Origin: Solirubrum puertoriconensis
GTDB lineage: Bacteria; Bacteroidota; Bacteroidia; Cytophagales; Hymenobacteraceae
Assembly: GCF_001483135.1 (NCBI RefSeq)
Contig: NZ_LNAL01000006.1
Location: 1,178,003-1,242,002, forward strand
Length of the DNA: 64,000 nt
Direction: 5' to 3'
Position numbers and translations under genes: made by a program. Within the stretch, counting starts at the first letter, position 1, and each line of letters begins with the position of its first letter. This document shows positions 1 through 64,000 of the stretch, piece by piece. The notes beneath the pieces are model-generated. The model made no database searches. It was not told the origin of the DNA and saw only the letters and a list, made by a program, of their open reading frames with translations.

Positions 1-963
1 CCATTCGCGGTCGTAGGTGCGATTCATCAGCTTCAGCACGCGCGAGTTACCGCTCTGGGCCGGCAGGTGAATGTAATTGCACACGTTGTCGTACTTGGCC
101 ATGGTGTGCAGCACCTCGTCGGTAATGTCTTTGGGGTGCGAGGTAGAGAAGCGCACGCGCAACTCGGGGCTTACCAAGGCTACGCGCTCGAGCAGGCCAG
201 CGAAGTTCACGAACTCCGTGCCGTCCTCTGATTGCCACTTATAACTGTCTACATTCTGGCCCAGTAGCGTTACTTCTTTGAAGCCTTTGTTGAATAAGTC
301 TTGGGCTTCCTGTACTATACTGTGCGCATCGCGACTCCGCTCGCGGCCGCGGGTAAACGGCACCACGCAGAACGAGCACATGTTGTCGCAACCGCGCATG
401 ATGCTGATAAAGGCCGACACGCCGTTGGAGTTCAGGCGCACGGGCGTAATGTCGGCGTAGGTCTCCTCGCGCGAGAGCAGCACGTTCACGGCGCGTTGGC
501 CGGCATCAACCTCCTTAATCAGACGGGGCAGGTCGCGGTAAGCATCGGGGCCTACAACCAGGTCCACAATCTGCTCTTCCTCCAAAAACTTGCTTTTGAG
601 GCGCTCGGCCATGCAGCCTAATACGCCCACTAGCAAGCCCGGGCGCTTACGCTTGTGGGCGTTGATCTGCTGCAGGCGCTGGCGCACCGTGATTTCGGCC
701 TTTTCGCGGATGGAGCAAGTGTTGAGCAGTACCAAATCGGCCTCGGCCAGCTCCGAAGTAGTATCAAAGCCCTCGTCGTAGAGGATGCTCGATACGATTT
801 CAGAGTCAGAGTAATTCATCTGGCAGCCGTAGCTCTCGATGTAGAGCCGGCGCTGACGACCCGTGTGCGTCGGCTCGCTCACGCGTACGTCGGCGGGTAA
901 CTGCTCAGCGGCTGGGGCAGCAGCCTTGTCCAGAAAATCAAGCGTAAGGATGGGTTGAGACAT
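1..963 (-). CDS. miaB: tRNA ms2i6A methylthiotransferase MiaB (partial, C-terminus beyond left edge)
   Basis: Radical-SAM enzyme that adds a methylthio group to i6A at position 37 of tRNAs reading UNN codons. I translated it by hand; 321 residues are present and the frame is open to the window edge, so the C-terminal TRAM domain is missing only because of the cut. The N-terminal UPF0004 cluster cysteines are visible at about C47 (YGCQMN), C83 (NTCSIR) and C117 (GCMAER). The radical-SAM CxxxCxxC is at about 192-199 (GCDNMCSFC), followed by [10 protein letters not shown], typical of MiaB rather than MtaB or RimO. The start is the ATG at 961-963, about 28 nt from a TACCTTTG box. MiaE, which hydroxylates the product of this pathway, is encoded 9 kb away. 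Confidence 0.95.
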
Positions 964-990
964 GGCCTCGAAAAATCAGCTGAAGGAGGG

Positions 991-998
991 CAAAGGTA
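991..998 (-). promoter_or_regulatory. Bacteroidota -7 promoter box (TACCTTTG) for miaB
   Basis: Minus-strand TACCTTTG matches the Bacteroidota sigma-factor -7 consensus TAnnTTTG exactly and lies about 28 nt before the miaB ATG. No convincing -33 TTG is seen at the usual distance. Confidence 0.5.
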
Positions 999-1109
999 CG
1001 GCTTACCCAGCAGAAATGACAGTTTGGCAGAACAATGAATAACTGAATTGCTAAGCTTCTGAGCCGGTGCTGGTTCTTGCTCATGGCACAAACCAGTGCG
1101 CGGTTAGCT

Positions 1110-2395: not shown

Positions 2396-3994
2396 CTATT
2401 TCATGCTAGCTAAGGCTACTTTGGCCTTGGCGTCGGTGCTGGTTTTGTATTCGTGCTTGTTGTAGCTCAGGGCCTTCTGAAAATACGCTTTGGCTTTCGC
2501 AAGTTGGCCAGCCTCCCGGCAGATGTACCCCATTTGCAGGGCGGCTTGCGGGGCAAAGTAATAAGGCGCATTGCCACTAAGCGCAATGGTGTGCGTGTAA
2601 AACAGGCGGGCCGAATCGAGGCGGCCCAAGCCGTGGTAAGCCCGGGCACGGCGGTACGGCTCTTCGAGCTTATCGCGCAGAGGAGTAGAAGAAGCTGCGC
2701 GGAAAGCACCTAGAGTGGCTAGAGCAGGCCGGTAATAGCCGCCATCGAGTTGTAGGCGAGCTTTGGTTAGCAAAGGATTAAGGGGTAAACGGTCATCGAC
2801 AAACCGTTGCGCGTAGCGGTCCTCCTCCACAACGGTTTCGCCGCTTTTACTGATTTGCTGGCGGCATTGCTCGGCTGCTTGGTTGTTGCCGCTGAGCCAG
2901 TGGGCCAAGTACATCTTAAACCAAGCGTCCTTGCGGTAGTGCACGCCTAGGTACTCTTTAGCAAACTGCTGATTGGCACGTAGCGAGGCGGCATACTGAC
3001 CTTGGTAGAGCAGCAAGTCGGCGGCCATGTGATGCAGATAGGGTGCCGGTAAGTAAGCGTTGCCTACTGGTCGGGCTCGGTAAGCAGCCAGAGCTTCGTC
3101 GGCGCGGTGCAGCTTTTTTTGTACCGAAACAGCTAAGTAGCTGAACAGTAAATTGTCGGGCTGGGCGCGCGTTAAGCGAGTGGTTAGGGCGGCCGCTTCC
3201 TCGTCGGCGCCATAGTAAGTCTGCCGGATCAGGGCCAGCAGGATTTCTGCTTCCGTCTGAAAATCGTGTGGGCGTATGGCGGCGTTACGCAGGTGCCGTA
3301 GGCCAGCTGTGGTATTGCCGGGTAGGCCTAAGAGGTTCAAGAACCAACGGTAGCCCTCCGGCACCGACCCGATCAGGAACTGGCACAAGCCCATTGTTTT
3401 TTGGGTGGGCAAGTGATGAGGCCAGCGTTTGGCATTTTGCTGTACCTGCAAGTACGCCTGCCGCAAGCTCCAGGCACCCTGCAGCTCGTGCTCGAACATG
3501 ACCTGAGTAGCCGCTTGGTGCAGGCGCACTTCGGCGCGGGCATAATCGCGCAGGGCAGTGCGTGGCAGCCGATCAAGCGCTTCGAGGCAACGGTTTTGCG
3601 CTTCTATCAAGGCATCGTAGCGGCCGGCATCCTGGCTGACCACTAGTTCGGTGAAGCTGATGCCTTCATCAACGAGCAACGCGCCGGGGCTGTGTGGTTG
3701 TTGGCGCAGCTCTGCTTTTATGATGTTGCGGGCCGCAGTGGTGCGCAGCTTCAACAACTCGGCATAAGCACGGCGACTGGTGGCAGAAAGCTGATCGGGG
3801 CTGCTGGTGATTTCCGCCCGGGCGGCATTTTCGCCGGCAGTATCCTGTTTTGGTACTGAAGGACGTTGTTGCTGCTTGCCGTGGGCGAAGCTACCTGGGG
3901 CTTTCGCGGTGGTGGCAAGGGCACAAAGCAGCAGGCACAGCACGGCAAGAACACGCCTGCGCAAACTTCTGCTTACCTCAGCAACCTTCAGCAT
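2396..3994 (-). CDS. Secreted or membrane-anchored TPR-like protein
   Basis: 532 residues. The N-terminus has a basic stretch (RSLRRR) and a hydrophobic run at about 14-28, a signal peptide or anchor, then a low-complexity polar region. The remainder is alpha-helical with tetratricopeptide-like spacing; the clearest TPR unit is near the C-terminus (AGQLAKAKAYFQKAL). I see no catalytic motif, so a scaffold or envelope role is only a guess. The ATG is genuine. Upstream lies the terminator of the zinc-ribbon gene, so this gene probably has its own promoter; pabB follows 14 nt after its stop. Confidence 0.75.
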   Translation of the reverse strand: MLKVAEVSRSLRRRVLAVLCLLLCALATTAKAPGSFAHGKQQQRPSVPKQDTAGENAARAEITSSPDQLSATSRRAYAELLKLRTTAARNIIKAELRQQPHSPGALLVDEGISFTELVVSQDAGRYDALIEAQNRCLEALDRLPRTALRDYARAEVRLHQAATQVMFEHELQGAWSLRQAYLQVQQNAKRWPHHLPTQKTMGLCQFLIGSVPEGYRWFLNLLGLPGNTTAGLRHLRNAAIRPHDFQTEAEILLALIRQTYYGADEEAAALTTRLTRAQPDNLLFSYLAVSVQKKLHRADEALAAYRARPVGNAYLPAPYLHHMAADLLLYQGQYAASLRANQQFAKEYLGVHYRKDAWFKMYLAHWLSGNNQAAEQCRQQISKSGETVVEEDRYAQRFVDDRLPLNPLLTKARLQLDGGYYRPALATLGAFRAASSTPLRDKLEEPYRRARAYHGLGRLDSARLFYTHTIALSGNAPYYFAPQAALQMGYICREAGQLAKAKAYFQKALSYNKHEYKTSTDAKAKVALASMK

Positions 3995-4005
3995 CAGATC
4001 AACAA

Positions 4006-4035
4006 AAAAGGAACGACACTGTGGCCGTTCCTTTT
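4006..4035 (-). terminator. Intrinsic terminator after the zinc-ribbon gene
   Basis: A 10-bp perfect stem (AAAAGGAACG / CGTTCCTTTT) with a 10-nt loop, followed on the minus strand by a run of T. It lies 22 nt past the stop at 4057, just before the TPR gene start. Confidence 0.8.
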
Positions 4036-4056
4036 CTATAAAAATGCGGAAAAAAC

Positions 4057-4806
4057 CTAGGCGTTGCGGCTTTCAACGTCGGCCAAGATACGGCCGCAGT
4101 GCTCGCACACAATAATTTTCTTGTGGGCAATGATGTCGGCCTGGCGCTGGGGCGGTACCGTGTTGAAGCAGCCACCGCAAGCGTCGCGCTTTACCATTAC
4201 TACAGCCAAGCCGTTGCGGGCGTTGCCGCGGATGCGGCTGTAAGCCGACAGCAATCGGTCCTCTACAGGCTGAGAAGCAGTTTCGCGCTCGGTCATCAGC
4301 TTTTGCTCATCGGCCTCGCTTTCGCCTACAATCACCTGCAGTTCGGCTTGCTTGTTCACCAAGTCCTTGCGGCGCTCTTCGAGGCGCTGCTTGGTGCCAC
4401 CAATTTCGATGTTCTTCTGATCGATCTGGTATTGAGCTTCGCGAACCTTTTTCTCCGAAATCTGGATTTCCAGCTTCTGCAGCTCGATTTCCTTGGCAAT
4501 AGCTTCGTACTCGCGGTTGTTGCGGACGTTCTGCTGCTGGTCTTCGTAGCGGCGGATCAGGGCTTCGGCATCTTTAGCGGCTTGCTTGCGGGCTTTGATC
4601 TGCTCGTTCAGAGCAGCGACTTCTTCGTCGAATTTGGCCACGCGCACCTCATAACCGGCAATCTCATCTTCCAGGTCGCGCACTTCTTCGGGCAGGTCGC
4701 CGCGCACGCGCCGAATCTCATCGAGTTGCGAATCGATGCGCTGCAGGTTAAGAAGGGCTTCCAGTTTGCTGGCTACGGTAATATCCGAAGCGGAGTTAGA
4801 AATCAT
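4057..4806 (-). CDS. Coiled-coil protein with C-terminal C4 zinc ribbon (CT398/DUF164-like)
   Basis: 249 residues. Residues about 15-175 form a long charged coiled coil (heptads rich in E, K, Q, R). The C-terminus has two Cys pairs, CGGCF near residue 211 and CEHC near 235, forming a four-cysteine zinc ribbon. This architecture matches the CT398/DUF164 family, conserved next to nif3-like genes in many bacteria; its biochemical role is not settled. The first 11 nt overlap the end of the nif3-like gene, so the two are almost certainly co-transcribed and translationally coupled. A terminator follows. Confidence 0.85.
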   Translation of the reverse strand: MISNSASDITVASKLEALLNLQRIDSQLDEIRRVRGDLPEEVRDLEDEIAGYEVRVAKFDEEVAALNEQIKARKQAAKDAEALIRRYEDQQQNVRNNREYEAIAKEIELQKLEIQISEKKVREAQYQIDQKNIEIGGTKQRLEERRKDLVNKQAELQVIVGESEADEQKLMTERETASQPVEDRLLSAYSRIRGNARNGLAVVMVKRDACGGCFNTVPPQRQADIIAHKKIIVCEHCGRILADVESRNA

Positions 4807-5899
4807 AGCGAACAGGGTTCGTGGGGGTCTCTGCTAACAAGACCGCAAAAGTACGTGCAAATTTTTCCGTAAGCAATTCCCGGAACAGTTCGTTAGTATA
4901 CTGCTCGCTTTCGTAGTGGCCAACATCGCACAACATGAGCTTGCCTTCGGGAGCAAAAAACTCATGGTATTTTATGTCGCCAGTTACGTAGGCATCGGCT
5001 CCGGCGGCTACGGCTTTCTTGGTTAGGAAGGAGCCCGCACCGCCACACAGGGCCACTTTCCGGATGACGGCGTGGTGCTCGGTGTGCTTAACCACCGGCA
5101 CGTGCAGCCGCTCGCGCAGTAGCCGCAAAAACTCCTTGGCCGAAAGCGCCTCGGGCAACTCGCCAACCATGCCGGAGCCCACGTCTTGATGCACGTTTTC
5201 CAGCTTTACCACCTCGTAGGCCACTTCCTCGTAGGGGTGCGCCTGCCGCAGAGCGCCTAGGGCTTTGTGTTGCAGGTGCAGGGGCAGCAATACCTCTACG
5301 CGCTGCTCAGGAGCAGTTTGCGGTTTGCCAACAGTGCCTTCGTACGGGTTGGTGCCTGGGCCAGGCGTAAAAGTGCCGGTGCCATCGAGGCGGAAGCTGC
5401 AGTCGTGGTAGTCGCCAATTTGGCCAGCGCCGGCTGCGTAGAGGGCCTGCAACACGGCATCGGTGTGAGCAGCAGGCACGTAGGTAATCAGCTTGGCCAA
5501 CAAGCCGGGCTTCGGGTCGAGCACGCGCAGGTTCTGCAAGCCAAGCTTTTCGCCCAGCTTGCGGCTGACGCCGTGACGCACGTTGTCGAGGTTGGTGTGG
5601 GCGGCGTACACGGCCACATCGAGGCGCAACGCACGCATTATGGTGCGCTCTACCTCGGTGCTGCCGGTGAGACGCTTGAGGGGCTGAAAAATTACGGGGT
5701 GGTGTACTACCACCATATTGCAGCCCCGGCGTACCGCCTCGTCGATGATAGCCGGCGTACAATCGAGGGCAATAAGCACGCCTTTAACCAGCATCTGCGG
5801 ATCGCCACACTGCAGGCCGGCGTTGTCGTAGCTTTCCTGAAAAGGCAGCGGGGCCCACGCCTCCAAAGCGCGGGTAAGGTCTTGAACGGTGACGGACAT
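4796..5899 (-). CDS. Nif3-like dinuclear metal centre protein with inserted PII-like domain
   Basis: NIF3/YbgI/DUF34 family protein of 367 residues, about 100 longer than the minimal form because a ferredoxin-like/PII-like domain is inserted at roughly 125-255. Metal ligands are visible: VVVHHP near 66-67, HTNLDNV near 101-105, and a C-terminal H and E in GHYESEQ. Members often assemble as hexamers; a GTP cyclohydrolase name is sometimes used, but the substrate is not established. I chose the ATG at 5899 because residues from there match the family start (QDLTRALEAWAPLPFQESYDN); the upstream extension to 5974 looks non-homologous. A TACTTTCG box ends 5 nt before this ATG, so the mRNA may be leaderless. 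Overlaps the downstream zinc-ribbon gene by 11 nt. Confidence 0.88.
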   Translation of the reverse strand: MSVTVQDLTRALEAWAPLPFQESYDNAGLQCGDPQMLVKGVLIALDCTPAIIDEAVRRGCNMVVVHHPVIFQPLKRLTGSTEVERTIMRALRLDVAVYAAHTNLDNVRHGVSRKLGEKLGLQNLRVLDPKPGLLAKLITYVPAAHTDAVLQALYAAGAGQIGDYHDCSFRLDGTGTFTPGPGTNPYEGTVGKPQTAPEQRVEVLLPLHLQHKALGALRQAHPYEEVAYEVVKLENVHQDVGSGMVGELPEALSAKEFLRLLRERLHVPVVKHTEHHAVIRKVALCGGAGSFLTKKAVAAGADAYVTGDIKYHEFFAPEGKLMLCDVGHYESEQYTNELFRELLTEKFARTFAVLLAETPTNPVRYDF

Positions 5900-5994: not shown

Positions 5995-6678
5995 TTACAG
6001 CAACTCGGCAAGTATAGCAGTGTATTGCTGCACAAAGTCGGGTACGAGGTGGCGCTTGTATTGCATGAGGTAGCGCGGATGATCGAACACCAGCACCTGT
6101 TCGAAAAGCTGCAGCTCCTGATTAAGCGCCTGAAAGTACTCGCCATTGCGCCGGCCTAAGCTGATGGCTACATCGCGCCGCAGCCCTAGGTCGGCTTGCT
6201 GCCTAATTGACTGCTGCATGTGCGGCCACAAGGCTTTGCTGACGGCGGCTGCATCGTAGTAGTTGTAGTTTTTGCCATTGCGCAGCAACACCAGCGGGTA
6301 AAGCGAGCCTAGGTAAAAATGCTGATAAAAGATTTGAGGACCACCCAGGGCATCAACTAGCTGGTACACAAACTGGCTCGAGAGTTCGGGGCGCTGCGGC
6401 AATTGATTGGGTATGCCGCAATGGCGCTGCAGCGCTGCCGGATCGGTAAAGGCCACGCCGGTGGTGCCGGCCCCAAAACGCCCGGGGTTTATGCCTAGCA
6501 ACGCCACCCTGGGTTGGTTGTCGGCATAAAATTGTTGAGCAAACTGGTGGAGTAGCTCACCAGCGGGCGACGTTTGGTACGGATTGTAGGCCGTAACCTC
6601 GCCTGGCAATGGTGGGGCAGCCGGAAAGCCATTCAGGAAAGTCGTTAGCCGTGTGCCAAAAGTATCAAGGGTAGTCAT
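5995..6678 (-). CDS. Uracil-DNA glycosylase superfamily protein, SMUG2-like (DUF4918)
   Basis: 227 residues. Motif 1 is LGINPGRFG near residue 60, like the GMNPG/GINPG motif of SMUG-type uracil-DNA glycosylases. The late motif FDHPRYLMQY near 200 fits the HP-containing motif 2. The family name on record for such Bacteroidota proteins is DUF4918; the Pedobacter SMUG2 enzyme is the characterised relative I would compare with. Likely role: removal of uracil or related deaminated bases from DNA. The ATG at 6678 is chosen over a TTG one codon upstream. Transcribed away from lpxK across a 104-bp gap. Confidence 0.8.
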   Translation of the reverse strand: MTTLDTFGTRLTTFLNGFPAAPPLPGEVTAYNPYQTSPAGELLHQFAQQFYADNQPRVALLGINPGRFGAGTTGVAFTDPAALQRHCGIPNQLPQRPELSSQFVYQLVDALGGPQIFYQHFYLGSLYPLVLLRNGKNYNYYDAAAVSKALWPHMQQSIRQQADLGLRRDVAISLGRRNGEYFQALNQELQLFEQVLVFDHPRYLMQYKRHLVPDFVQQYTAILAELL

Positions 6679-11729: not shown

Positions 11730-11792
11730 GGCCAAGCGAAAGCCCCTAGGTGGTTGCAGTAGTGGCAACCACCTAGGGGCTTTCGCTTGGCC
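11730..11792. terminator. Bidirectional terminator with perfect 28-bp stem containing CCTAGG
   Basis: Perfect inverted repeat, arms 11730-11757 and 11765-11792, 7-nt loop. Each arm carries one CCTAGG (11745-11750 and its mirror). It separates two convergent genes. It lacks a strong U-tract, so a role in 3'-end protection is possible besides termination. Confidence 0.75.
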
Positions 11793-16633: not shown

Positions 16634-17416
16634 ACATCCGTGCATTTTGCATTGACCAGCTTGCCTTGCCGTGGCATCCGTACCAGGCAGGTCAGTCCTG
16701 CTGCCCAGAATGCATAGCATTTCTGCGCAGCCATGTCTTGGCTTTGTGGGAGGAGTGAAAGTCCGCAGCGTTTATTGCGAAACACGATTTGCTGTGTCAG
16801 GAGCTCGGCAATAGGGCATAGCTTGATAACGCCTAAGTGGTAAACGCAACTGATGGCTAGGTGCTGCACGGATGCAATTATCCAGCTTTGTACCACCTAG
16901 GGAAATGACGAAGCAGACCGGACCTAGGGCAAGCAAATTCAATTAAATGCGCATAATTGAGCCCTTGTCTCAACGGGCGGGAACCGAGTCAGAGAAGGAG
17001 CAAGGTGATGGGCAACTTGGATAAATGCTGCCGAAGAAAAGCTTTGCGTGTAGCTTGCTTGGCTATTGGCGGTAGGGAAGCGGTTGCAAGATGGTGGGGA
17101 TAAAAGGGAAGACTTCTTTCGGCTTGATCGACAGGCTTGATTTCTTCTCTAAGGCTGTTCCCTCTACATCTTGCTAGGGGAGCAATAAATTGGACGCGGC
17201 TTTGCCAAGGTGAATCGTTAGTTAAACCTCAGTGCATCAATCAACCAAGTATACGCAACGTTGCTGTGATTCAGCTTCGACTCGGGTGTTTTGCGGCGCT
17301 ACATCAGGCGTTACTCGCGCGAGCATTGTTAATCTCACTCATATATCAGCAGTGTTGTTGTTATTACCCAATTGTGTATATTTGTTCAGTTTGGTTAATC
17401 TTACACAAATGAATAT
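16634..17416. other. Long non-coding stretch (783 bp) before the XRE-type regulator
   Basis: No convincing gene on either strand. The right half (about 17160-17410) is visibly more AT-rich than its surroundings. It contains two CCTAGG sites near 16900-16930 and the promoter of the downstream regulator. I found no tRNA or recognisable structured RNA. It may hold regulatory DNA or the decayed remains of a gene. Confidence 0.5.
17355..17384 (+). promoter_or_regulatory. Complete Bacteroidota promoter (TTG-N19-TATATTTG)
   Basis: -33 TTG at 17355-17357, 19-nt spacer, -7 TATATTTG at 17377-17384. This is the best full consensus promoter in the window. It lies 33 nt before the ATG of the XRE-type regulator. 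Confidence 0.75.
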
Positions 17417-30153: not shown

Positions 30154-30807
30154 ATGATCCGCACCGTCATCTTCGACATGGACGGCGTACTCGTTGATAC
30201 CGAGCCGCTGCACCACGAGGCCTTTTTCCGTCATTATGCCGAGCTCGGCATTCAGGTCTCGGATGAGGAATACGCCACCTTCCTAGGTCTCTCCACGCGC
30301 AACGTGTACCAGCGGCTGAAGCAGGAGTTCGGATTGGATGGCGACATTGACGAGCTGATGAAGCGTAAGCGCGAGCTATTTGCCGTGGCTTTCGACGAAT
30401 CCGAGGAGCTGGATTTGCTGCCCGGTGCGCGCGAGCTGATCTTGGACTTACGCCAGGCGGGCGTGCCGTTGCAGCTGGCCTCGTCGGCGGGCAAAGACAC
30501 CATCAACCGCGTGTTCCGGCGTTTCGGGTTGTATCCGCTGTTCGACAACCTGGTAAGCGGCGAAGATTTTCCGCGTTCCAAGCCCGATCCGGCCATTTTC
30601 TTGCGTGCCGCCGAGTTGGCCGGAGTGCCACCGCAGGAGTGCTTGGTAATCGAGGACTCCCACAACGGCGTAACCGCCGCCAAAGCAGCAGGCATGTACT
30701 GCATCGGCTACCGCAGCGAGCATTCGGAAGGGCAGGACCTGCACCACGCCGATCAGGTGGTTTCGCACCTAGGGCAGCTTAGCGCAGCCGCCATTCTGGC
30801 ATTGTAA
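30154..30807 (+). CDS. HAD-IA family phosphatase, beta-phosphoglucomutase-like
   Basis: 217 residues. Motif I is FDMDGVLVDTEP, with nucleophile D8 and acid/base D10. Motif II is SSAGK near 109; motif III is SKPDP then VIEDSHNGVTAAKAAGM near 165-181. The helical cap (about 15-85) is the C1 type of HAD subfamily IA. Such enzymes are sugar-phosphate phosphatases or phosphomutases; the exact substrate cannot be read. A TACCTTTA box at 30122-30129 may be its promoter. Confidence 0.9.
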   Translation: MIRTVIFDMDGVLVDTEPLHHEAFFRHYAELGIQVSDEEYATFLGLSTRNVYQRLKQEFGLDGDIDELMKRKRELFAVAFDESEELDLLPGARELILDLRQAGVPLQLASSAGKDTINRVFRRFGLYPLFDNLVSGEDFPRSKPDPAIFLRAAELAGVPPQECLVIEDSHNGVTAAKAAGMYCIGYRSEHSEGQDLHHADQVVSHLGQLSAAAILAL

Positions 30808-30927
30808 GCACCTAGGGCAAGGCCCGGTGCGCTCAGATTGAGTTTAAGGCCATAACGCCATTGCCAACAATAACTCCGATTGGGCGCGGTTGCGTACTAA
30901 GGGTAAACGCTTGCCCCCACCACCCGC

Positions 30928-34009: not shown

Positions 34010-36793
34010 TTACACCACCACGTTTACCATGCGGCCGGGCACTACAATCACCTTTTTGGCAGGCTTGCCTTCGGCGTAGCGGGCCAGGATGTCGGTGCCG
34101 AGTACGGTTTGCTCGATTTCGGCGGCCGTAGCATTGGCCGGGAACTGCAGCTGCTCGCGCACTTTGCCGTTGATGGCCACCGGGTAGTTCACCGTGTCTT
34201 CAACCAAGTAAGCCTCGTTGAACTCGGGGAACGGCGCCGTGCTCAGCGAACCGGCTTCGTGGCCGAGTTGCTCCCACAGCTCCTCCGCAAGGTGCGGAGC
34301 GTAGGGCGAAATCAGCACCACCAGCGGCTCCAAAATGGCGCGCTTGCGGGTGTTCAGGGCCGACAGCTCGTTTACGCAGATCATAAACGTGCTCACCGAG
34401 GTGTTGAACGAGAACCGCTCGATGTCCTCCTGCGCCTTCTTGATGGCCTTATGCAAAGCCTTCAGCTCGGCCGGTGTGGGCTCCTCGTCGGTAACGGCCC
34501 AGTCGCGGTCTTCCGGGAAGAACAATCGCCAGAACTTCTTCAGGAAGCCCGATACCCCCGTCATGCCTTGGGTGTTCCAGGGCTTGAATTGCTCCAACGG
34601 ACCTAGGAACATCTCGTGCAGGCGCAGCGCGTCGGCCCCGTAGCGCTCAATCAGCGTGTCGGGGTTCACTACGTTGTATTTCGACTTCGACATCTTCTCG
34701 ATTTCGACGCCGCACACGTAGGTGCCGTTGTCTTCGAGAATGAACTCGGCCGAGGCAAAGTCTTCGCGCCAGTTGCGGAAGGCTTCGATGTCGAGCACGT
34801 CGTCTTCGGTGATGTTCACATCCACGTGCAGGGGCGTGGTTTCGTATTCGCCCTTCTTCGAGTTCGTCACGAACTTGTTGGTGCCGTTGATGCGGTACAC
34901 AAAGTTCGAGCGACCCAGGATCATGCCTTGGTTAATGAGCTTCTGGAAAGGCTCGTTACCGCTTACCAGCCCTAGGTCTTTCAGGAACAAGTACCAGAAG
35001 CGGGCGTAGAGCAAGTGGCCCGTAGCGTGCTCAGCACCACCCATGTATAGGTCTACGGTTTGCCAATACTGCTCGGCTTCTTCGCTCACAAAACGCTCGT
35101 CGTTCTGCGGGTCCATGTAGCGCAGGTAATACCACGACGAACCCGCCCAGCCAGGCATGGTGCTCAGCTCGAAATCGAACTGCCCGCGGTACTTCCAGTC
35201 CTTGGCCCGACCTAGGGGCGGCTCACCGGTTTCGGTAGGCTTGTACTCATCGATTTCGGGCAGTACCAGCGGCAGGTCTTGCTCGGCCACGCCGAAGGCC
35301 ATACCGTCGCGGTAGTACACCGGAATAGGCTCGCCCCAGTAACGCTGCCGGCCGAAGATGGCATCGCGCAGGCGGTAGTTCACCTTGCCCTTGCCGATAC
35401 CCATTTCCTCAAGGCGCTCAATTACAGCCTTGAGAGCCGGCTTTACTTCGAGGCCGTTGAGAAAATCGGAGTTGATGATGCGGCCTTCTTTGGCGGCGTA
35501 CGCCTCGTTGGCTTCTTCATCGAAGCCTTCCACCACCGGTACGATGGGCAGCGAGAAGTGCTTGGCAAACGCGAAGTCGCGGGTGTCGTGGGCCGGTACA
35601 GCCATCACCACGCCGGTGCCGTAGCCCGCCAGCACGTAATCAGCCACCCAAATGGGCAGCTTCTCGCCGCTGAAGGGGTGCAGCGCGTACGAACCCGTGA
35701 AGGCACCGGTAATGGTCTTCACATCGGCCATACGGTCGCGCTCTGAGCGGTTTTTGGCCCACTCAACGTACTTTTCTACTTCGGCGCGCTGCTCGTTGGT
35801 GATGAGTGTTTCGAGCAACTCCGACTCGGGCGCCACGGCCATGTACGTAACGCCGAACAGGGTGTCGGGGCGGGTGGTGAACACCGTAAGCGGCAGCTCG
35901 GGGTGGTTTTCTACCTCGAAGCGCACTTCGGCACCCACGGAGCGGCCTATCCAGTTGCGCTGCATTTCCTTCACGGCTTCGGGCCAGTCGATGGTGTCGA
36001 GGCCGTCGAGCAGGCGCTGGGCGTAGGCGGTGATGCGCAGGTTCCACTGCGGCATCAGGCGGCGCTCAACGGGGTAGCCGCCGCGCTCCGATACGCCGTC
36101 TTTTACTTCGTCGTTGGAGAGCACCGTGCCGAGCTGGGGGCACCAGTTCACGTAGGTTTCGCTTTGGTAGGCCAGGCGGTAGGGGTGAACGGCGGCCACG
36201 CGTTGGGCCTCGCTCATCATCTGCCACTGGCCCGCCGAAAAGTCGTGGCGCTCGTCTTCGTCGCACACGGCCCGCACACCGGCCGAGCCCTCGGCGGCAA
36301 ACTTATCCTGCAGCGTGCGAATGCTTTCGGCCTTGTTGGTGTCGAGGTTGTACCACGAGTTGAACAGCTTCAGGAAGATCCACTGCGTCCACTTGTAATA
36401 GCTGGCGTCGGAGGTGCGCACTTCGCGGCTCCAGTCGTAGCTGAAACCCAAGGAAGAAAGCTGCTCAATATAGCGGGCGATGTTCTCGCGGGTGGTTTTC
36501 TCGGGGTGCTGGCCCGTTTGGATAGCGTACTGCTCGGCGGGCAAGCCAAACGAGTCGAAACCCATGGGGTGCAGCACGTTGAAGCCGCGGTGACGCTTGT
36601 AGCGCGTCACGATATCGGAGGCGATGTAGCCTAGCGGGTGACCCACGTGCAAGCCCGCTCCCGAGGGGTAGGGGAACATGTCGAGCACGTAGTACTTGGG
36701 CTTATCAGAGTGGTTTTCGGCGCGGAACGTCTGGTTTTGTTGCCAGAAATCCTGCCACTTCTTCTCTATCTCCTGCGGACGGTAGCCGGGCAT
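34010..36793 (-). CDS. leuS: Leucyl-tRNA synthetase
   Basis: Class I synthetase charging tRNA-Leu. 927 residues. The HIGH-type motif is [16 protein letters not shown] near 40-58. The CP1 editing domain spans about 220-420 ([37 protein letters not shown]). The KMSKS loop is [12 protein letters not shown], followed by the anticodon-binding helical bundle and a C-terminal domain. It carries an insertion before KMSKS (about 630-690), common in Bacteroidota LeuS. A TATTTTCG box at 36819-36826 may be the promoter. Confidence 0.97.
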
Positions 36794-52477: not shown

Positions 52478-52490
52478 ACCTAGGGGGCTG

Positions 52491-56875: not shown

Positions 56876-57982
56876 CTATACCAGCGCAAATTTTTTGCCC
56901 GGAAGTGCCCGCACCACGCCCCGAAACTCTAGCCCCAGTAGTAAAGTAGAAACCTGGTTGATTGGCAGTTGAGCTTCCCAGCTCAACTCATCAATCTGCC
57001 GTTCCTTGTGCGCTTGCAGGATTTCAACCAGCTTAAACTCCTCGGCAGAGAAGTCGGCAGGGTTGAGGGAAGGCACCACCGGGGTGTGGTGCAGCGCGCC
57101 ATCCCAGTTTAGTACCTGCTCCACATCGAGCGGGCCTGTGTAGATAACGGCCTGCTGGTTGCGAATGAGATGGTTGCAGCCTTCGGAGGCCGCTTGATCG
57201 AGGCGGCCGGGCACGGCCAACACCTCGCGGTTGTATTCCTGCGCCAGCTCGGCCGTGATGAGCGCGCCGCCTTTGCGAGCTGCTTCTACCACCACGGTAG
57301 CTTCTGTGAGGCCGGCAATAATGCGGTTGCGCGCCGGAAAGTTGTACTTATCGGGCTGGGTGCCGAAAGGAAACTCGGTGAGCAAGCCGCCTTGCTCCAC
57401 CATCTTCTCGGCGGTGCGGCGGTGAGCAGCGGGGTAAATGATGTCGAGCCCGGTGGCCATTACCCCAATGGTAGCCAAGCCCTCCTGAATGGCAGCCCGG
57501 TGGGCGATAATGTCAATACCGTAGGCAAGGCCACTTACAATCAACGGTTGGTGCCCAGCAACTCCCCGAATCAGCTTCTCGGTTTGCTCCCGGCCGTAAT
57601 CGGTGGCTTGGCGCGTACCCACCACGGCCAAGGAGCGTGGGTGGTTGAGGTCGGCGGTGCCTAGGTAGTACAACAACACCGGCGCATCGGGTACCGGGCG
57701 CAGGCGTGCGGGGTAGTTGGGCCGCGTGTAGTACAGCAACTGCACGCCGTCCTTCTCGGCCCTACGCAGAATTTGCTCGGCTTTGCCCAGGGCGGAAGAG
57801 TTGTTGCGCAGGGCAGTTACCGTGCTCGGGCCAACGCCGGGTATCTTCAGCAGCTTGCTTTGCGGTGCTTGCAGCACCGCCTCGGCCGAGCCGCAGTAGC
57901 TTACAAGGTTACGGGTAATCAGCGGGCCTATGCCCGGGAGTAGTGTAAGGGCAACTTCGGATAGGAGGGAAGTATCGGGCAC
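56876..57982 (-). CDS. dprA: DNA-processing protein DprA
   Basis: Loads RecA on incoming single-stranded DNA during natural transformation and protects it. 368 residues from a GTG start. An N-terminal HhH/SAM-like part (LTLLPGIGPLITRNLVSYCG; IPGVGPSTVTAL) precedes the Rossmann-like DprA core: VVGTRQATDYGREQTEKLIR, VSGLAYGIDIIAHRAAIQEG, GLLTEFPFGTQPDKYNFPAR, and NRIIAGLT. The C-terminal winged helix DprA_WH ends the protein (EEFKLVEILQAHKERQIDEL). Known in many non-competent bacteria as well. The class IV aminotransferase follows without a gap; the MerR regulator gene lies upstream on the same strand. Confidence 0.94.
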   Translation of the reverse strand: MPDTSLLSEVALTLLPGIGPLITRNLVSYCGSAEAVLQAPQSKLLKIPGVGPSTVTALRNNSSALGKAEQILRRAEKDGVQLLYYTRPNYPARLRPVPDAPVLLYYLGTADLNHPRSLAVVGTRQATDYGREQTEKLIRGVAGHQPLIVSGLAYGIDIIAHRAAIQEGLATIGVMATGLDIIYPAAHRRTAEKMVEQGGLLTEFPFGTQPDKYNFPARNRIIAGLTEATVVVEAARKGGALITAELAQEYNREVLAVPGRLDQAASEGCNHLIRNQQAVIYTGPLDVEQVLNWDGALHHTPVVPSLNPADFSAEEFKLVEILQAHKERQIDELSWEAQLPINQVSTLLLGLEFRGVVRALPGKKFALV

Positions 57983-58758: not shown

Positions 58759-61407
58759 ATGTCGCTTCCATCAGCCAACCAAGTTCGTCAGCAGTTTCTC
58801 GATTTCTTCGCCTCCAAAGGTCACCACATCGTGCCCTCGGCGCCTATCGTGGTGAAGGACGACCCCACGCTGATGTTCATCAACTCGGGCATGGCCCCGT
58901 TCAAGGATTACTTCCTCGGCAACAAGCCCGCGCCCTTTAAGCGCGTAGCCGATACGCAGAAATGCCTGCGCGTGAGCGGGAAGCACAACGACCTGGAAGA
59001 GGTAGGCTACGACACCTACCACCACACCATGTTCGAGATGCTGGGCAACTGGTCGTTTGGCGACTACTTCAAGAAGGAAGCCATTGCCTGGGCCTGGGAA
59101 CTCCTCACCGAGGTATACAAGCTGCCCAAAGACCGCCTCTACGTAACCTATTTCGAGGGCGACAAGGGCGACAACCTAGGGGCCGACACCGAGACGCAGG
59201 CCCTGTGGCGCCAGTACACCACGGAGGACCGCATCCTGCCCGGCAATAAGAAAGACAACTTCTGGGAGATGGGCGACACCGGCCCTTGTGGCCCCTGCAC
59301 TGAAATCCACATCGACCTGCGCGACGAGGCTGAAGTGGCTCAGCAAGGCGGCGCCGAGCTGGTGAATGCCGACCACCCGCAGGTGGTGGAAATCTGGAAC
59401 AACGTGTTCATGGAGTTCCAGCGCAAAGCCGATGGCTCGCTCGAAAAGCTGCCCGCCCAGCACGTAGATACCGGCATGGGCTTCGAGCGCCTGATGATGG
59501 CCGTGTCGGGCGTGAAGTCGAACTACGACACCGACGTATTCCAGCCGCTGATTCAGTTTATCGCCACGGAAGCCGGCGTGAAGTACACCGGCGCCATGGA
59601 GCCGACGGATATTGCCATTCGGGTAATTGCCGACCACATCCGCACCATCTCGTTTGCCATCAGCGACGGGCAGTTGCCCTCCAATGTAAAGGCCGGATAC
59701 GTAATCCGGCGCATTCTGCGCCGCGCTGTGCGCTACGCATTTACGTTCCTCAACTTCAAGCAGCCCTTCCTGTATAAAGTGGTGCCTATTTTGGCCGACC
59801 ACATGCACGCTATTTTCCCCGAGCTGAAGCAGCAGCAGCAGTTTGTGCAGCGAGTGATTGAGGAAGAGGAAATTGCCTTCTTGAAAACCCTGGAGAACGG
59901 CCTGCGCCGCCTCGATGCGCTGGAAGAATCGTTCAAGCAGCAGGGCAACCTCATCGACGGCAAAACTGCCTTTGAGCTGTACGATACCTTCGGCTTCCCG
60001 CTCGACCTTACGGCTCTTATTGCCCGCGAGAAAGGCCTGAACGTTGATGAGAAAGGCTTTGCTGTAGAAATGGAGCAGCAGAAAAACCGTTCGCGCCGCG
60101 CCGCCGAGCAGGAGCAGAGCGACTGGGTAATTGTGCACTCCTCGGAGGAGCAGCCGCGCTTTGTGGGCTACGATGCCCTTACGGCCGAGGCTCGCATCCT
60201 GCGCTACCGCCAGGTTACGCAGAAAGGCAAAACCGAATACCACGTGGTGCTCGACCAAACGCCGTTCTACGCCGAGTCGGGCGGGCAGGTGGGCGACACC
60301 GGTTATTTGGTTACGCCGCTCTCGAAGGTGCGCGTGATTGATACCCGCAAGGAAAACGACCTCATCGTGCACACCGTGCTCGATTTGCCGCACGACCTGG
60401 AAGCACCCGTAGAGGCTAAGGTTGACGAGGCACGCCGCTTGCTGATCCGCAAAAACCACTCGGCTACTCACCTTATGCACGCGGCTTTGCGCCACGTTCT
60501 AGGTGACCACGTGGCCCAGCGCGGTTCGCTGGTGAACGACAAGCTGCTGCGCTTCGACTTCTCGCACTTCTCTAAAGTAACCGACGATCAGCTGCGCGAG
60601 GTTGAGCACATCGTGAATCAGCGCATTCGCCAGCAAATTCAGCTAGGCGAGGAGCGCAACGTTCCGCTCGACGAAGCCCGTTCGCGTGGCGCCATGGCTT
60701 TGTTTGGTGAGAAGTACGGCGACAGTGTGCGCGTTATTACCTTCGACCCCGAGTACTCCGTGGAGCTTTGCGGCGGCATACACGTGCCGAACACCGGCGA
60801 AATTGGTTTCTTCAAGATTACCTCTGAGTCGGCGGTAGGTGCTGGTGTACGCCGCGTGGAGGCCGTGACGGCCGACTTGGCTGAGCGTTATGTGGAAGAG
60901 CAAATGGACCTGCTGGCCCAAGTGCGCGAAGCCCTAGGTAATCCGCAGCACCTCATCCCAAGCATTCAGAAGTTGTCGGAAGAAGTGGCCACCCTGCGCA
61001 AGCAGCTGGAGCAAGCCGAAACGCAGCAGCTAGGTCAGCTGAAAGACCAGTTGGCCGGCCAGGTGAAGGAATTGAACGGCGTGAACTTCCTGGCTGCTAA
61101 GGTGCCAGCCCGCTCGGCCGATGCCGTGAAGAAGCTCGCCTACGATCTGCGCCAAGTGGTATCCAACCTCGTGCTCGTGCTCGGTGCCGACATCGAGGGC
61201 AAGCCGCAATTAGCCGTTATGATCGACGACGAGTTGGCCAAAGGCGGTAAGCTGAATGCCTCGCAGCTGGTGCGCGAGCTGGCCAAGGATATTCAGGGTG
61301 GCGGCGGCGGTCAGCCATTCTTCGCTACGGCCGGCGGCAAGAACGCCGCTGGGCTTGATGCAGCCATCGGCAAAGCTGAAACCTTAGTTGCTAATACGCT
61401 GGCGTAA
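58759..61407 (+). CDS. alaS: Alanyl-tRNA synthetase
   Basis: Class II synthetase charging and proofreading tRNA-Ala. 882 residues, the normal length. Order: catalytic domain (MFINSGMAPFKDYFLGNKPA, LRVSGKHNDLEEVGYDTYHH, FEMLGNWSFGDYFKKEAI), tRNA-recognition helical domain, editing domain with zinc-type motif HSATHLMHAALR near 575 and CGGIHVPNTGEIG near 670, then a coiled-coil C-Ala domain ending in AKGGKLNASQLVRELAKDIQ and GGGGGQPFFATAGGKN. An ordinary housekeeping gene. Confidence 0.97.
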   Translation: MSLPSANQVRQQFLDFFASKGHHIVPSAPIVVKDDPTLMFINSGMAPFKDYFLGNKPAPFKRVADTQKCLRVSGKHNDLEEVGYDTYHHTMFEMLGNWSFGDYFKKEAIAWAWELLTEVYKLPKDRLYVTYFEGDKGDNLGADTETQALWRQYTTEDRILPGNKKDNFWEMGDTGPCGPCTEIHIDLRDEAEVAQQGGAELVNADHPQVVEIWNNVFMEFQRKADGSLEKLPAQHVDTGMGFERLMMAVSGVKSNYDTDVFQPLIQFIATEAGVKYTGAMEPTDIAIRVIADHIRTISFAISDGQLPSNVKAGYVIRRILRRAVRYAFTFLNFKQPFLYKVVPILADHMHAIFPELKQQQQFVQRVIEEEEIAFLKTLENGLRRLDALEESFKQQGNLIDGKTAFELYDTFGFPLDLTALIAREKGLNVDEKGFAVEMEQQKNRSRRAAEQEQSDWVIVHSSEEQPRFVGYDALTAEARILRYRQVTQKGKTEYHVVLDQTPFYAESGGQVGDTGYLVTPLSKVRVIDTRKENDLIVHTVLDLPHDLEAPVEAKVDEARRLLIRKNHSATHLMHAALRHVLGDHVAQRGSLVNDKLLRFDFSHFSKVTDDQLREVEHIVNQRIRQQIQLGEERNVPLDEARSRGAMALFGEKYGDSVRVITFDPEYSVELCGGIHVPNTGEIGFFKITSESAVGAGVRRVEAVTADLAERYVEEQMDLLAQVREALGNPQHLIPSIQKLSEEVATLRKQLEQAETQQLGQLKDQLAGQVKELNGVNFLAAKVPARSADAVKKLAYDLRQVVSNLVLVLGADIEGKPQLAVMIDDELAKGGKLNASQLVRELAKDIQGGGGGQPFFATAGGKNAAGLDAAIGKAETLVANTLA

Positions 61408-61614: not shown

Positions 61615-62385
61615 ATGAAGCCGACGTTTTTACGCCTAGGTGCCGCTGCACTGCTTGCCGCATGGCCAGCGTTTGTCTGGGCTCAGCAACCCGTTGCAGC
61701 GGCAAAGCCACGCGTGGAAATTGCCTACTTCGATGCCAAAAGCAACAAGCTACCCACGGCCACGGGAGCCAGTTACCGCTCCGAGGTTCAGTACGAAGAC
61801 AGCGTAACGGCCGTTGAGCGAACCTTTTATGCTAATGGCGGCCGGCGCTCAGTAGCGCCTTACGAGAACTACCGCCTGCGCATTCAGCACGGTGTAAGCC
61901 AGTCGTGGTACGAAAACGGCCAGCTGAAGTGGCACGACACTCGGGTGCATGGCAAGCTGGAGGGCGAGCTGCTGTACTATTACCCCACGGGCAAGCTCAA
62001 GCGTAGCGAGCAATACAGCGCTGGTACTCGCACAGCGGGGACTTGCTTCGGACCCGATGGCAAAGCCGTACCTTATTTTGAATACCTGATAATGCCCGTG
62101 CCGGCTGGCGGGCTGGCCGGCTTGCGTAGCTACCTAGGCGCCAACATTGCTTACCCCGAAGCCGCCCGCGAAGCCGAAGTACAAGGAAAGGTACTGGTAA
62201 GCTTCGTGGTGGATACTACCGGAATGGTGAAGGACGTGCAGGTGAAACAATCGGTGCACCCGTTGCTCGACGCCGAGGCGGTGCGGGTGGTGCAGCAAAC
62301 TCCGCGCTGGACGCCCGGTAGGCGCGACGGGGAACTGGTACCAGTTCAATACGCAGTGCCGGTAGTATTCCGGCTGGAGGAGTAG
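61615..62385 (+). CDS. TonB-like energy-transducing protein with MORN-like repeats
   Basis: 256 residues. Signal peptide (LGAAALLAAWPAFVWAQ). The middle has MORN-type repeats: GVSQSWYENGQLKWHDTRVH and GKLEGELLYYYPTGKLKRSE. The C-terminus is a TonB C-terminal domain: YPEAAREAEVQGKVLVSFVV, VDTTGMVKDVQVKQSVHPLL and DAEAVRVVQQTPRWTPGRRD, ending in VPVVFRLEE. It lacks the N-terminal membrane anchor of true TonB, so it is an exported TonB-domain protein of unknown role. It is paralogous to the partial gene at 63508 and may be part of a duplicated set. Confidence 0.82.
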   Translation: MKPTFLRLGAAALLAAWPAFVWAQQPVAAAKPRVEIAYFDAKSNKLPTATGASYRSEVQYEDSVTAVERTFYANGGRRSVAPYENYRLRIQHGVSQSWYENGQLKWHDTRVHGKLEGELLYYYPTGKLKRSEQYSAGTRTAGTCFGPDGKAVPYFEYLIMPVPAGGLAGLRSYLGANIAYPEAAREAEVQGKVLVSFVVDTTGMVKDVQVKQSVHPLLDAEAVRVVQQTPRWTPGRRDGELVPVQYAVPVVFRLEE

Positions 62386-62450
62386 GCAAACTCCTGCCTG
62401 GCTTTGGGCCATTTGTATGCTTTTTTTATCCACCATTTTTCTATAACCGC

Positions 62451-63425
62451 ATGCGCATTTCTACCCTTGGCTTCGCGGCCGCTTTACTTACTGGCCTCGT
62501 CAACGTGGCGTCGGCATCAGCCCAAACCTTTACTGATCCGGGCTCTTATAACAACTTTATTGTGGCCGAACAGCGCACCATGCTGAAGAAGAACCTGCGC
62601 TACATCAGCAAATCGGCCCACTCCGATAACGAGAAAAAGATTGATGCTCGCCGCGTTGAGTTGGTGAAGCAAACAGAATTGTCGCTGAACAAGCTGGCTA
62701 AAATGCCGGCTTTCAAAGACGATAAGGGCTTTAAGGAACAAACCACGGAAGCTTTTTATCAGCTGCTGAAGGTGTACTCCGAAGATTACAAGGCCGTGGA
62801 CATGCTGGCCGCCACCCGCACGGCCACCGCCGAGAACATGGAGCAGTACTTTAAGCTGCAGGAGGTGGCCGAACGCAAGCTGCAGGCCATCAACGACTCG
62901 GTGGATGCGGCGCAGCAACGCTTCGCCAAGCGTCATGGCATGAGCATCTCAGCCGACCCGGAGGGCGAACGGCTAGCCAAGTTCATGGCCCAGGTTTCGG
63001 AGGTAAATGCCTACCAGCACAAGGTGGTATTGGCGCAGTTCCGCATCGAAAAGTCGAGCGCAAAGCTATCGGATGCCATTTCGGCCCAGGACGCAGTCAG
63101 CTTTGAAGCGGCACGCGTGAAGTTGCTGGAGGATACCAAGGTGGCCTTGACCGAGCTGGCGACTATTCCGGCATTTCGAAACAAAGACACGCAATACCGC
63201 GACGCGGCCAAAAGCTTGGTCAATTTCTACGCTGGCATGTGCCAGAATCAGTTTCCGAAATTTCATGAGCTGATGCTGCGTAAAGACCAACTCACAAAAG
63301 CTGATGTAACGGCCATTAATGGTTATATCAATCAGCTGAACACTGGCAGCCAGAAGTTTACGCAAGCTTATAACCAGGCCGGCAGCAACTTCATGGCGGC
63401 CTACATACCGGTGATGAACGACTAA
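62451..63425 (+). CDS. Secreted protein with an internal duplication (LIC11966-like)
   Basis: 324 residues. Signal peptide (LGFAAALLTGLVNVASASAQ). Two similar helical domains follow. Copy 1 (about 38-118): FIVAEQRTMLKKNLRYISKS through SLNKLAKMPAFKDDKGFKEQ. Copy 2 (about 190-270): KVVLAQFRIEKSSAKLSDAI through ALTELATIPAFRNKDTQYRD. The shared pattern is L-K/T-L-A-x-x-PAFxxxxxF/Y. This may belong to the LIC11966-type surface protein family (from memory). Function unknown. It sits between the two TonB/MORN paralogues. Confidence 0.75.
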   Translation: MRISTLGFAAALLTGLVNVASASAQTFTDPGSYNNFIVAEQRTMLKKNLRYISKSAHSDNEKKIDARRVELVKQTELSLNKLAKMPAFKDDKGFKEQTTEAFYQLLKVYSEDYKAVDMLAATRTATAENMEQYFKLQEVAERKLQAINDSVDAAQQRFAKRHGMSISADPEGERLAKFMAQVSEVNAYQHKVVLAQFRIEKSSAKLSDAISAQDAVSFEAARVKLLEDTKVALTELATIPAFRNKDTQYRDAAKSLVNFYAGMCQNQFPKFHELMLRKDQLTKADVTAINGYINQLNTGSQKFTQAYNQAGSNFMAAYIPVMND

Positions 63426-63507
63426 CCTTCGCCACCTACGACGACATTCGCAGCGGTGCCAACTTTCTGGGGCAGGGGAGTCGGCACCGCTGCTGTATCT
63501 TGGCCGC

Positions 63508-64000
63508 ATGTGTGCATCTCTTTGTATCTCCGCTCAGCACCGCAGTTGGTTGGCCTTGGCACTGCTGTTGGCTGCTCCGGCCGCATCGGCACAGGTAAAA
63601 GTTGTATCTACGCTTGAGCAGCTGGAAGGCCAGAAAGCCGGCATCCGGTACTACGACCGCAACGCCGTACCGCTGCCCGACGCGAAAGGCGCTCATAGCT
63701 ACGACATCATGCGCCGGGCCGATAGCCTAGGTGTAAAATGGCGCGTGCGGCGCTACACCGTGCAGGGGCATCAGCAACTCCTCGATGCAGGTTTCAGCAG
63801 CGATTTGCCCCACGGTACGCTGCAGGCCCGCAGCCGCGAGTGGTACCCCAATGGCCAGCTGCGCGAAGATGTGAGCTACCGCAACGGCAAGCCCGATGGG
63901 CCCATGAAAACCTACTTCCCCGATGGCAAGCTCCGCCGCGACCAGCAGGTGCGGGCTGGTACCGTGGTAAAAGGGGAGTGTTACGGCCCCGGCGGCCAAG
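63508..64000 (+). CDS. TonB/MORN-type exported protein, paralogue (partial, C-terminus beyond right edge)
   Basis: 164 residues seen. Signal peptide (SWLALALLLAAPAASAQ). MORN-type repeats are visible: REWYPNGQLREDVSYRNGKP and DGPMKTYFPDGKLRRDQQVR, close to those of the protein at 61615 (shared core GKLxR...AGT...G-x-C-x-GP-x-G). A TonB C-terminal domain is expected beyond the edge. A TATCTTGG sequence, six nt before the ATG, could be a weak -7 box. No stop appears in the window, so the gene is cut only by the window. Confidence 0.75.
   Translation, partial: MCASLCISAQHRSWLALALLLAAPAASAQVKVVSTLEQLEGQKAGIRYYDRNAVPLPDAKGAHSYDIMRRADSLGVKWRVRRYTVQGHQQLLDAGFSSDLPHGTLQARSREWYPNGQLREDVSYRNGKPDGPMKTYFPDGKLRRDQQVRAGTVVKGECYGPGGQ

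Follow-up and report, generated by a model that had tools for sequence, protein, structure and literature searches.

The window analysed here is the whole 64,000-base stretch of contig NZ_LNAL01000006.1 of Solirubrum puertoriconensis, a member of the Hymenobacteraceae, and the subject is a short iterated word, the hexamer CCTAGG, that lies scattered through it (Table 1). CCTAGG occurs 81 times in the window, against Markov expectations of 19.9, 13.2, 10.9 and 15.6 at orders 0, 1, 2 and 3; the order-4 expectation is 60.2, since its 5-mers already hold most of the motif. An earlier note on this DNA, which estimated about 80 copies where about 20 would be expected, was close to the mark, and its GC content of about 59% is amended to 57.9%. 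The note also placed sites in genes and in intergenic DNA, and we found 67 in 56.7 kb of open reading frames (ORFs) and 14 in the 7.3 kb outside; as ORFs were called mechanically, some of this non-ORF DNA may be coding.

The excess extends over the whole genome (G000; 4,804,721 bases in 8 contigs), which carries 6212 copies, one per 773 bp, compared with 136 copies of the reversed-letter control GGATCC. Within the same GTDB genus, G005 (5678) and G006 (5325) are likewise word-rich and form the window's clade together with G000, in contrast to G001, G002 (Hymenobacter sp. 15J16-1T3B), G003, G004 and G007 with just 123–249 copies per genome. A genome-wide count set against this reversed-letter control and the comparison with relatives lacking the bias, the latter proposed in the note, bear out a real enrichment, as do Markov expectations for samples of 20–324 kb. 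ACCTAGGV, the fuller form of the word, and all dialect words other than CCTAGG were counted in samples of 20–324 kb per set.

Table 1. The iterated word in the window, close pairs of it, related words at other loci, and the gene used to anchor comparisons.
Feature	Position	Strand	Remark
Window summary	1..64000		81 CCTAGG: 71 oriented ACCTAGGV (28 +, 43 -), 10 not so
ACCTAGGV (a)	4055-4061, 8336-8342, 11771-11777, 16895-16901, 16922-16928, 19559-19565, 21445-21451, 22771-22777, 26110-26116, 28662-28668, 28788-28794, 30767-30773, 30810-30816, 31097-31103	+	
ACCTAGGV (b)	34601-34607, 35210-35216, 37520-37526, 40171-40177, 41035-41041, 46736-46742, 46931-46937, 47483-47489, 52478-52484, 53198-53204, 54717-54723, 56672-56678, 59174-59180, 62132-62138	+	
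ACCTAGGV (a)	1915-1921, 2002-2008, 2946-2952, 6185-6191, 6308-6314, 7319-7325, 8835-8841, 9072-9078, 10724-10730, 11745-11751, 13124-13130, 15550-15556, 16441-16447, 18872-18878, 20387-20393	-	
ACCTAGGV (b)	22051-22057, 24288-24294, 26682-26688, 26923-26929, 27709-27715, 30282-30288, 31966-31972, 33154-33160, 34001-34007, 34971-34977, 38002-38008, 39024-39030, 39288-39294, 39528-39534	-	
ACCTAGGV (c)	42991-42997, 45729-45735, 47063-47069, 48035-48041, 48605-48611, 50666-50672, 50953-50959, 51467-51473, 51844-51850, 53975-53981, 57660-57666, 60933-60939, 61635-61641, 63726-63732	-	
CCTAGG without oriented form	5256-5261, 16171-16176, 18299-18304, 33901-33906, 36974-36979, 40265-40270, 44416-44421, 53368-53373, 56205-56210, 56382-56387		
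Inverted pair	11738..11784	.	forms a 20-bp stem between convergent ORFs; resembles a terminator on either strand
Direct pair	16895..16928	+	27 bp apart, outside ORFs
Direct pair	30767..30816	+	43 bp apart, within an ORF; similar pair in G005 (L047)
Pontibacter word-bearing loci	L230, L233-L235, L237, L238, L240-L246, L252, L253		AAGTATAA/AGGTATAG/AACTATAG
Leucyl-tRNA synthetase (LeuRS) gene	34010..36793	-	Pfam; used for orthologous regions and tree; outside the phenomenon itself

Upkeep and form of the word

Codon use was compared in ORFs of at least 150 amino acids from the window and from orthologous stretches of 60–80 kb. An artefact of codon, dipeptide or base composition would find support in the frame xxC-CTA-GGx, which is shared by 54 of the 67 coding sites of the window. 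However, CTA makes up 59.8% (n = 87), 59.8% (n = 92) and 48.7% (n = 119) of the leucine codons in the C-Leu-GG context in G000, G005 and G006, respectively, compared with 3.7–7.8% in other contexts across these three genomes (7.2–7.8% in the window), and in G001–G004 it accounts for 0, 0, 3.6 and 1.6% of the leucine codons in this context (n = 57, 65, 56 and 62). Site density is also higher outside than inside ORFs, at 1907 against 1183 per Mb in G000, 3055 against 1046 in G005 and 3744 against 986 in G006, and the same direction holds in all 11 CCTAGG sets and all 8 dialect-word rows. Given this context-bound use of CTA, a composition artefact, which the note had named as fatal to its own claim, is rejected as hardly conceivable.

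The word is maintained at synonymous positions. Among the three enriched genomes, where G000 aligns with 84.0% identity to G005 and 84.7% to G006, CTA within CCTAGG is conserved at 31/48, 25/46, 30/42, 24/44, 29/35 and 28/35 positions in the six ordered comparisons (54–83%), and CTA elsewhere at 15/121, 15/126, 23/86, 18/93, 20/64 and 18/64 (12–31%). The contrast is smaller against other 4-GC palindromes (44/67 vs 191/375 from G000 to G005; 37/65 vs 186/353 from G000 to G006).

The genomes of the window's clade share the asymmetric word ACCTAGGV, and the palindrome ACCTAGGT, with A on both sides, is avoided. A precedes the core on exactly one strand at 71/81, 99/108 and 95/101 sites in G000, G005 and G006, and ACCTAGGT occurs 3, 0 and 2 times where the marginals predict 18.3, 22.7 and 24.3; the commonest form, ACCTAGGG, accounts for 37/81, 60/108 and 63/101 sites. 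The biased neighbouring bases described in the note (CCTAGGTG, CCTAGGTC and CCTAGGGC) are real and represent the trace of ACCTAGGV on either strand. With CCTAGG masked, the 7-mer ACCTAGG reaches 25.8 times its order-2 expectation in 324 kb of G000, G005 and G006, and 0.35 times in 240 kb of the unenriched G001–G004. In the eight enriched sets, flank information between positions -14 and -3 never exceeds 0.06 bits, except for 0.07 at one G079 position. With hardly any information more than two bases from the core, the word is not a dispersed repeat of the REP-like kind.

A lineage-specific mutation bias without function, such as a mismatch-repair or polymerase variant favouring the word, would fit the finding that sisters lacking a site mostly carry CCCAGG or CCTGGG instead (8/23, 16/28 and 16/26 in three comparisons), a transition at a usually synonymous position. 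Exact specificity over 6–8 bases combined with the A-on-one-side rule would be hard for such a bias to produce, however; moreover, CTA codons are rare outside the word and one-mismatch precursors are not generally depleted. We consider this explanation very improbable.

Strand, spacing and mobile DNA

ACCTAGGV lies on the plus and minus strands 28 and 43 times in G000, 43 and 56 times in G005, and 40 and 55 times in G006; pooled over these three orthologous regions, 111 vs 154 copies amount to a slight shared excess on one strand. The dialect words of other lineages, described below, are similarly divided (CTAGGCCA 83/110, CCTACCCC 62/48, CCCTACCC 42/43; in Pontibacter AGGTATAG 52/61, AAGTATAA 157/141, AACTATAG 52/57), and single CCTACCC-type stretches are one-sided with gene strand (L327 4/21, L329 23/1). 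Over the sampled stretches, as distinct from whole replichores, the words have no orientation bias of the kind that DNA uptake sequences (DUS) also lack. Strong strand polarity is absent in the words tested, and identity with Chi or KOPS is rejected.

Pooled over nine genomes, the coefficient of variation (CV) of the gaps between sites is 0.913 vs 0.977 for random placement, a value as low being reached in 27 of 2000 simulations. Taken singly, G000 and G038 are clearly evenly spaced and G005 is borderline, G006 and G111 show no such evenness, and G079 shows the opposite (CV 1.27). Being so slight in the pool and missing from some genomes, evenness does not serve as proof of selection. The somewhat even placement agrees with the main rival to the uptake dialects proposed below, namely, that the words are selected sites of an intracellular DNA-binding protein (acting in the nucleoid, segregation, or recombination and repair) whose specificity drifts between lineages. 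Such a protein would also account for sharp specificity with little one-mismatch enrichment, for the palindromic core in several lineages, and for strong upkeep at synonymous sites. Against it, polarity of the KOPS or Chi kind is absent, and the evenness is clear in only two genomes, with G079 over-dispersed. Moreover, we know of no such binding proteins with terminator-like inverted pairs and species dialects, which counts further against an explanation that we consider rather unlikely.

For the inverted pair in the window, the fold energy is -45.5 kcal/mol on the plus strand and -47.1 kcal/mol on the minus strand (z about -8), and comparable pairs between convergent ORFs occur in G005 (L046) and G006 (L050), with fold energies of -38.9 and -39.1. 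The stems of inverted pairs between convergent ORFs measure 16–20 bp in some cases. Across 304 kb of the window's clade, close pairs outside ORFs comprise 9 inverted and 6 direct ones, and 6 of the 9 inverted pairs lie between convergent ORFs, 45 such gaps having been sampled.

Fewer copies are found in horizontally acquired elements. Seven small-contig stretches of enriched genomes hold 7 CCTAGG in 123.7 kb, with 1, 0 and 1 copies in 20, 20 and 11.2 kb of contigs C2, C3 and C4 of G005, 2 and 0 in 20 kb each of C2 and C3 of G006, and 2 and 1 in 12.5 and 20 kb of C4 and C5 of G000. Four of the seven carry conjugation genes, encoding TraG-type ATPases (G005 C3, G006 C3) or type IV coupling proteins (G005 C4, G000 C4), and the other three showed no conjugation marker among the few proteins scanned. 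The 89-kb contig C2 of G000 is word-rich, with 25 CCTAGG in 20 kb. On an island of G006 (G006:C1:3000001-3040000; L285, L286), where Vsr and an m5C methylase lie about 10 kb apart, 4 and 1 copies were counted per 20 kb. Compared with G005, G006 has more CCCAGG, and more of the CCTAGG sites of G005 are lost in it than vice versa; Vsr may be eroding the word in G006. One stretch of G000:C1 (L281, 2498 bases) is without any G or C and is apparently masked.

Dialects in the Hymenobacteraceae

Whole-genome counts in 204 Hymenobacteraceae genomes place more than 5000 CCTAGG in nine (G000, G005, G006, G038 or H. cavernae, G044 or H. crusticola, G079, G095, G111 or Hymenobacter sp. BT559, and G130) and 1200–2400 in four (G049 or H. 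fodinae, G051, G136, and G144 or H. wooponensis); the remaining 191 have at most 888, mostly 60–400. These counts were complemented by contigs around the LeuRS gene from strains named Hymenobacter, Pontibacter, Rufibacter or Adhaeribacter.

Related lineages bear different words. G038 favours the symmetric ACCTAGGT and G079 CCCTAGGG, the words of G044 are ACCTAGG and ACCTAGC, and G095 and G111 have CCTAGG mostly preceded by A or C. The intermediate counts of G049, G051, G136 and G144 appear to stem from another, non-palindromic word, CTAGGCCA. Either CCTACCCC or CCCTACCC is borne by G103, G027, G042, Hymenobacter sp. HSC-4F20, H. sediminis, H. latericoloratus, H. profundi and H. ginkgonis; as CCTACCCC runs mainly in sense within ORFs (71/87), codon use may contribute to this weaker dialect, though it too is denser outside ORFs. 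Of 19 Pontibacter loci, 15 carry 20–53 copies of AAGTATAA, AGGTATAG or AACTATAG in 17.6–22.8 kb with uninformative flanks (-0.02 to 0.04 bits in the far flank for words of this type), the words jointly reaching 1.05–2.7 copies per kb and 2400–5200 per Mb outside ORFs; L248, L255, L257 and L266 are without these three words. An asymmetric word with dialects in related species, as known for DUS, is thus found here, the symmetric word of G038 being an exception.

The turnover was followed on a quick LeuRS tree. Its 88 rows represent the window, five sister genomes, 30 loci, and 52 of the 80 named loci. On this tree, 4 changes are required for the CCTAGG label, 3 of them forced by starred branches, and 12 for all word labels together. 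Of the 18 rows with G handles that are labelled 'none', twelve were scored for CCTAGG only, and two of these twelve, G052 and G094, have a LeuRS identical to that of CCTACCC-bearing rows. This inflates the numbers of changes for CCTACCC and for all labels together and leaves that for CCTAGG unaffected.

Other iterated words were also noticed. AGACGCGA, CGCGTCTC and GTAGAGAC recur in L218, L208 and L198 (H. perfusus, H. telluris and H. wooponensis); the flanks in L208 and L218 are conserved (more than 1 bit in the far flank), and their words are therefore part of a longer dispersed repeat. GATC is nearly absent in G079, G095 and G111 (L156–L158, L162–L167), with 2, 1 and 2 copies per 60 kb vs 94–127 expected, and GGATCC counts of 0–10 recur in many Hymenobacter genomes. 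This suggests strong GATC avoidance in many genomes of this genus.

The dialects bear on a process of the kind proposed for the highly iterated palindromes (HIPs) of cyanobacteria, in which, as modelled by Elhai (2015), the word is driven by a solitary methyltransferase acting alongside very-short-patch or methyl-directed repair. The earlier note, right that a short word is held at high density by an unexplained process, had likened it to the palindrome HIP1; the likeness holds for the 6-base core and for G038, whose ACCTAGGT is a true palindrome, but fails for ACCTAGGV in the window's clade and for the non-palindromic CTAGGCCA, CCTACCCC and AAGTATAA of other lineages. The density within the HIP range (500–2500 per Mb; PMC4390886), the restriction-site-like palindromic hexamer at the core and the sharp specificity would all suit such a process. 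The enzymes, which the note had advised looking for, are not shared: no METHYLTRANSFERASE was common to all enriched genomes examined (PF00145, PF01555, PF02086 and PF07669; PF02384 and others were not searched, and only part of the methyltransferase families is covered, a point in favour of this process), nor was Vsr. Among 8 genomes, PF00145 was above the cut-off in G001, G004 and G006 and in neither G000 nor G005, and Vsr (PF03852) in G006 and G001 only, so that within the window's clade G006 alone passes for Vsr and an m5C methylase. In the same 8 genomes, the G000 match to PF01555 was restricted to a 12.5-kb contig that also encodes a type IV secretion system coupling protein; G005 gave no match at E ≤ 0.01, and the unenriched G001, G002, G004 and G007 exceeded the cut-off. 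PF02086 was present in 42 of the 204 genomes, none of which belongs to the 13 with enriched or intermediate counts; PF07669 was found in 24 of 25 genomes, whether or not they bear the word, the exception being G000, with no match at E ≤ 0.5. Together with the several non-palindromic dialects, this renders a HIP1-type process improbable.

Possible causes and comparison with known systems

We tentatively favour the view that the iterated word is a DUS-like self mark with lineage dialects, a view that in our judgement comes close to an even chance. On this view, natural transformation would involve a receptor on the cell surface with a preference for DNA carrying the lineage's own word, here ACCTAGGV, and uptake of kin DNA followed by recombination would spread and keep the word at about one copy per 0.7–1.3 kb where the sequence is free to vary. 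A changed receptor specificity would give rise to a new dialect around the common TA centre, and in lineages that lost the receptor the word would decay. Both uptake as the cause and the existence of the receptor are what we infer, and five traits of DUS and of uptake signal sequences (USS) are observed here: density, lack of marked polarity, dialects, non-coding excess and scarcity in mobile DNA. Inverted pairs, a sixth such trait, are seen with a mixed outcome. The density of DUS is given as one per 400–1100 bp (PMC7371117), and the genome-wide density here is of this order: the nine enriched genomes have one CCTAGG per 0.68–1.34 kb on rounded genome sizes, G044 and G130 (one per 1.27–1.34 kb) lying slightly below the DUS range.

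Several observations weigh against this uptake reading. The core of the word is palindromic, unlike DUS, which are described as not palindromic (PMC1939737). Graded enrichment of near matches is a footprint of DUS (PMC1939737), and no graded excess of mismatched forms was found: the summed ratio of observed to expected one-mismatch forms is 1.183 in enriched genomes vs 1.161 in unenriched relatives, with a few transition products (ACTTAGG, ACCTAAG) 4–6 times commoner than in relatives. Near matches being hardly enriched, specificity is sharp, contrary to a graded uptake bias. Direct close intergenic pairs outnumber inverted ones for AAGTATAA (21 vs 17) and AACTATAG (8 vs 2), and any slow process would also leave mobile DNA poor in the word. 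Finally, none of the words looked for is prominent in G040, G037, G116, G143, G125 (Hymenobacter sp. YC55) and G141 (40-kb samples), in G009 and G010 (20 kb each), or in G001–G004 (60 kb each).

The search for uptake machinery is likewise unfavourable to it. ComEC is present in 203 of the 204 genomes, bearers and non-bearers alike, and is uninformative as a discriminator. Transformation in Riemerella requires proteins without homology to known transformation machinery, and RA0C_RS04920 of R. anatipestifer is a DNA-binding candidate (PMC8459023). A search for DUF5689 modelled on this protein, with 20 stretches from 19 genomes taken around matches or expected places, gave matches at E ≤ 0.001 in 78 of the 204 genomes, from which no receptor emerged. 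Among eight genomes chosen beforehand as a prospective test (20 kb each), a clear word was found in G042, G178 and G206, a weak one (CTACCCC, 27 vs 7.4 expected) in G094, and none in G069, G131, G137 and G147; conversely, DUF5689 was not found in the word-bearing G006, G079, G051, G144, G136 and G103. The short DUF5689 form adjoins a SusC-type TonB receptor, a SusD-like lipoprotein and a metallophosphoesterase (Pfam on L321 only), the SusD label being our assumption from the protein start. DUF5689 was rejected as the uptake receptor, as the search led to a SusCD-type nutrient operon and six word bearers lack a match.

The DUF5689 loci have features of their own. L321–L335 (e.g., L321:7801-15789) share a size-matched ORF series including the SusC-type TonB receptor, the DUF5689 protein and the metallophosphoesterase (by Pfam on L321), together with ORFs that we take to be sigma/anti-sigma-like and SusD-like. 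In G000, a DUF5689 and fibronectin-like protein lies at G000:C6:1057256-1058290 (L317:9256-10290), its neighbours being presumably MurB-like and MutS2-like from their sequence starts. A paralogue in G040 (L336:8299-11721) has phospholipase-D domains and a type IX secretion system sorting tail.

Riemerella columbina, also of the Bacteroidota, prefers its own DNA in transformation; the motif is left unresolved there, and a plain k-mer count yields only A/T-rich words (PMC7965970). Among the best-ranked matches in the open PMC literature, we found no further report of uptake sequences in Bacteroidota, Hymenobacter or Pontibacter, and none whose title or abstract dealt with CCTAGG in Hymenobacter. 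It is possible, though somewhat doubtful, that uptake dialects run family-wide through the Hymenobacteraceae, diverging between sisters around a TA centre and recognized by a receptor other than a type IV pilin; such dialects would be, to our knowledge, the first in Bacteroidota. DUS and USS have been described for two proteobacterial families, and the present case comes from another phylum. What keeps short words dense in genomes is an open question, HIP1 being without a settled explanation, and with the repeated turnover, the several dialects and the contrast between sister clades that have or lack the word, the responsible gene can here be sought by comparing sister genomes. If the uptake reading is true, each dialect would be a barrier of sexual isolation legible from the genome alone, and the words would show the DNA-exchange partners of these bacteria and help to transform them.

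Chi and KOPS resemble the present words as short iterated words, but the words here are without strong strand polarity. GGGTAGGG, found in some Hymenobacter, resembles what we take to be the KOPS consensus. HIP1 (GCGATCGC) and the alternate HIPs of cyanobacteria are, like the present word, short, over-represented genome-wide and patchy among relatives (PMC4390886); unlike HIP1, the form found in the window's clade is asymmetric, the words of several lineages are non-palindromic, and no tested methyltransferase family occurs in all enriched genomes examined. From the DUS of Neisseriaceae and the USS of Pasteurellaceae, the present case differs in its Bacteroidota host, in a word of 7–8 bases with a partly palindromic core, in dialects that lie further apart and in one-mismatch forms that are hardly enriched, and its uptake role is proposed from sequence. 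It resembles them in thousands of copies at about one per kb (PMC3630211, PMC7371117, PMC1939737), in dialects of related species built on a conserved core, CTG in DUS and the TA centre here (PMC3630211), and in having no orientation bias, few copies in mobile DNA and, less clearly, some inverted pairs at terminator-like positions.

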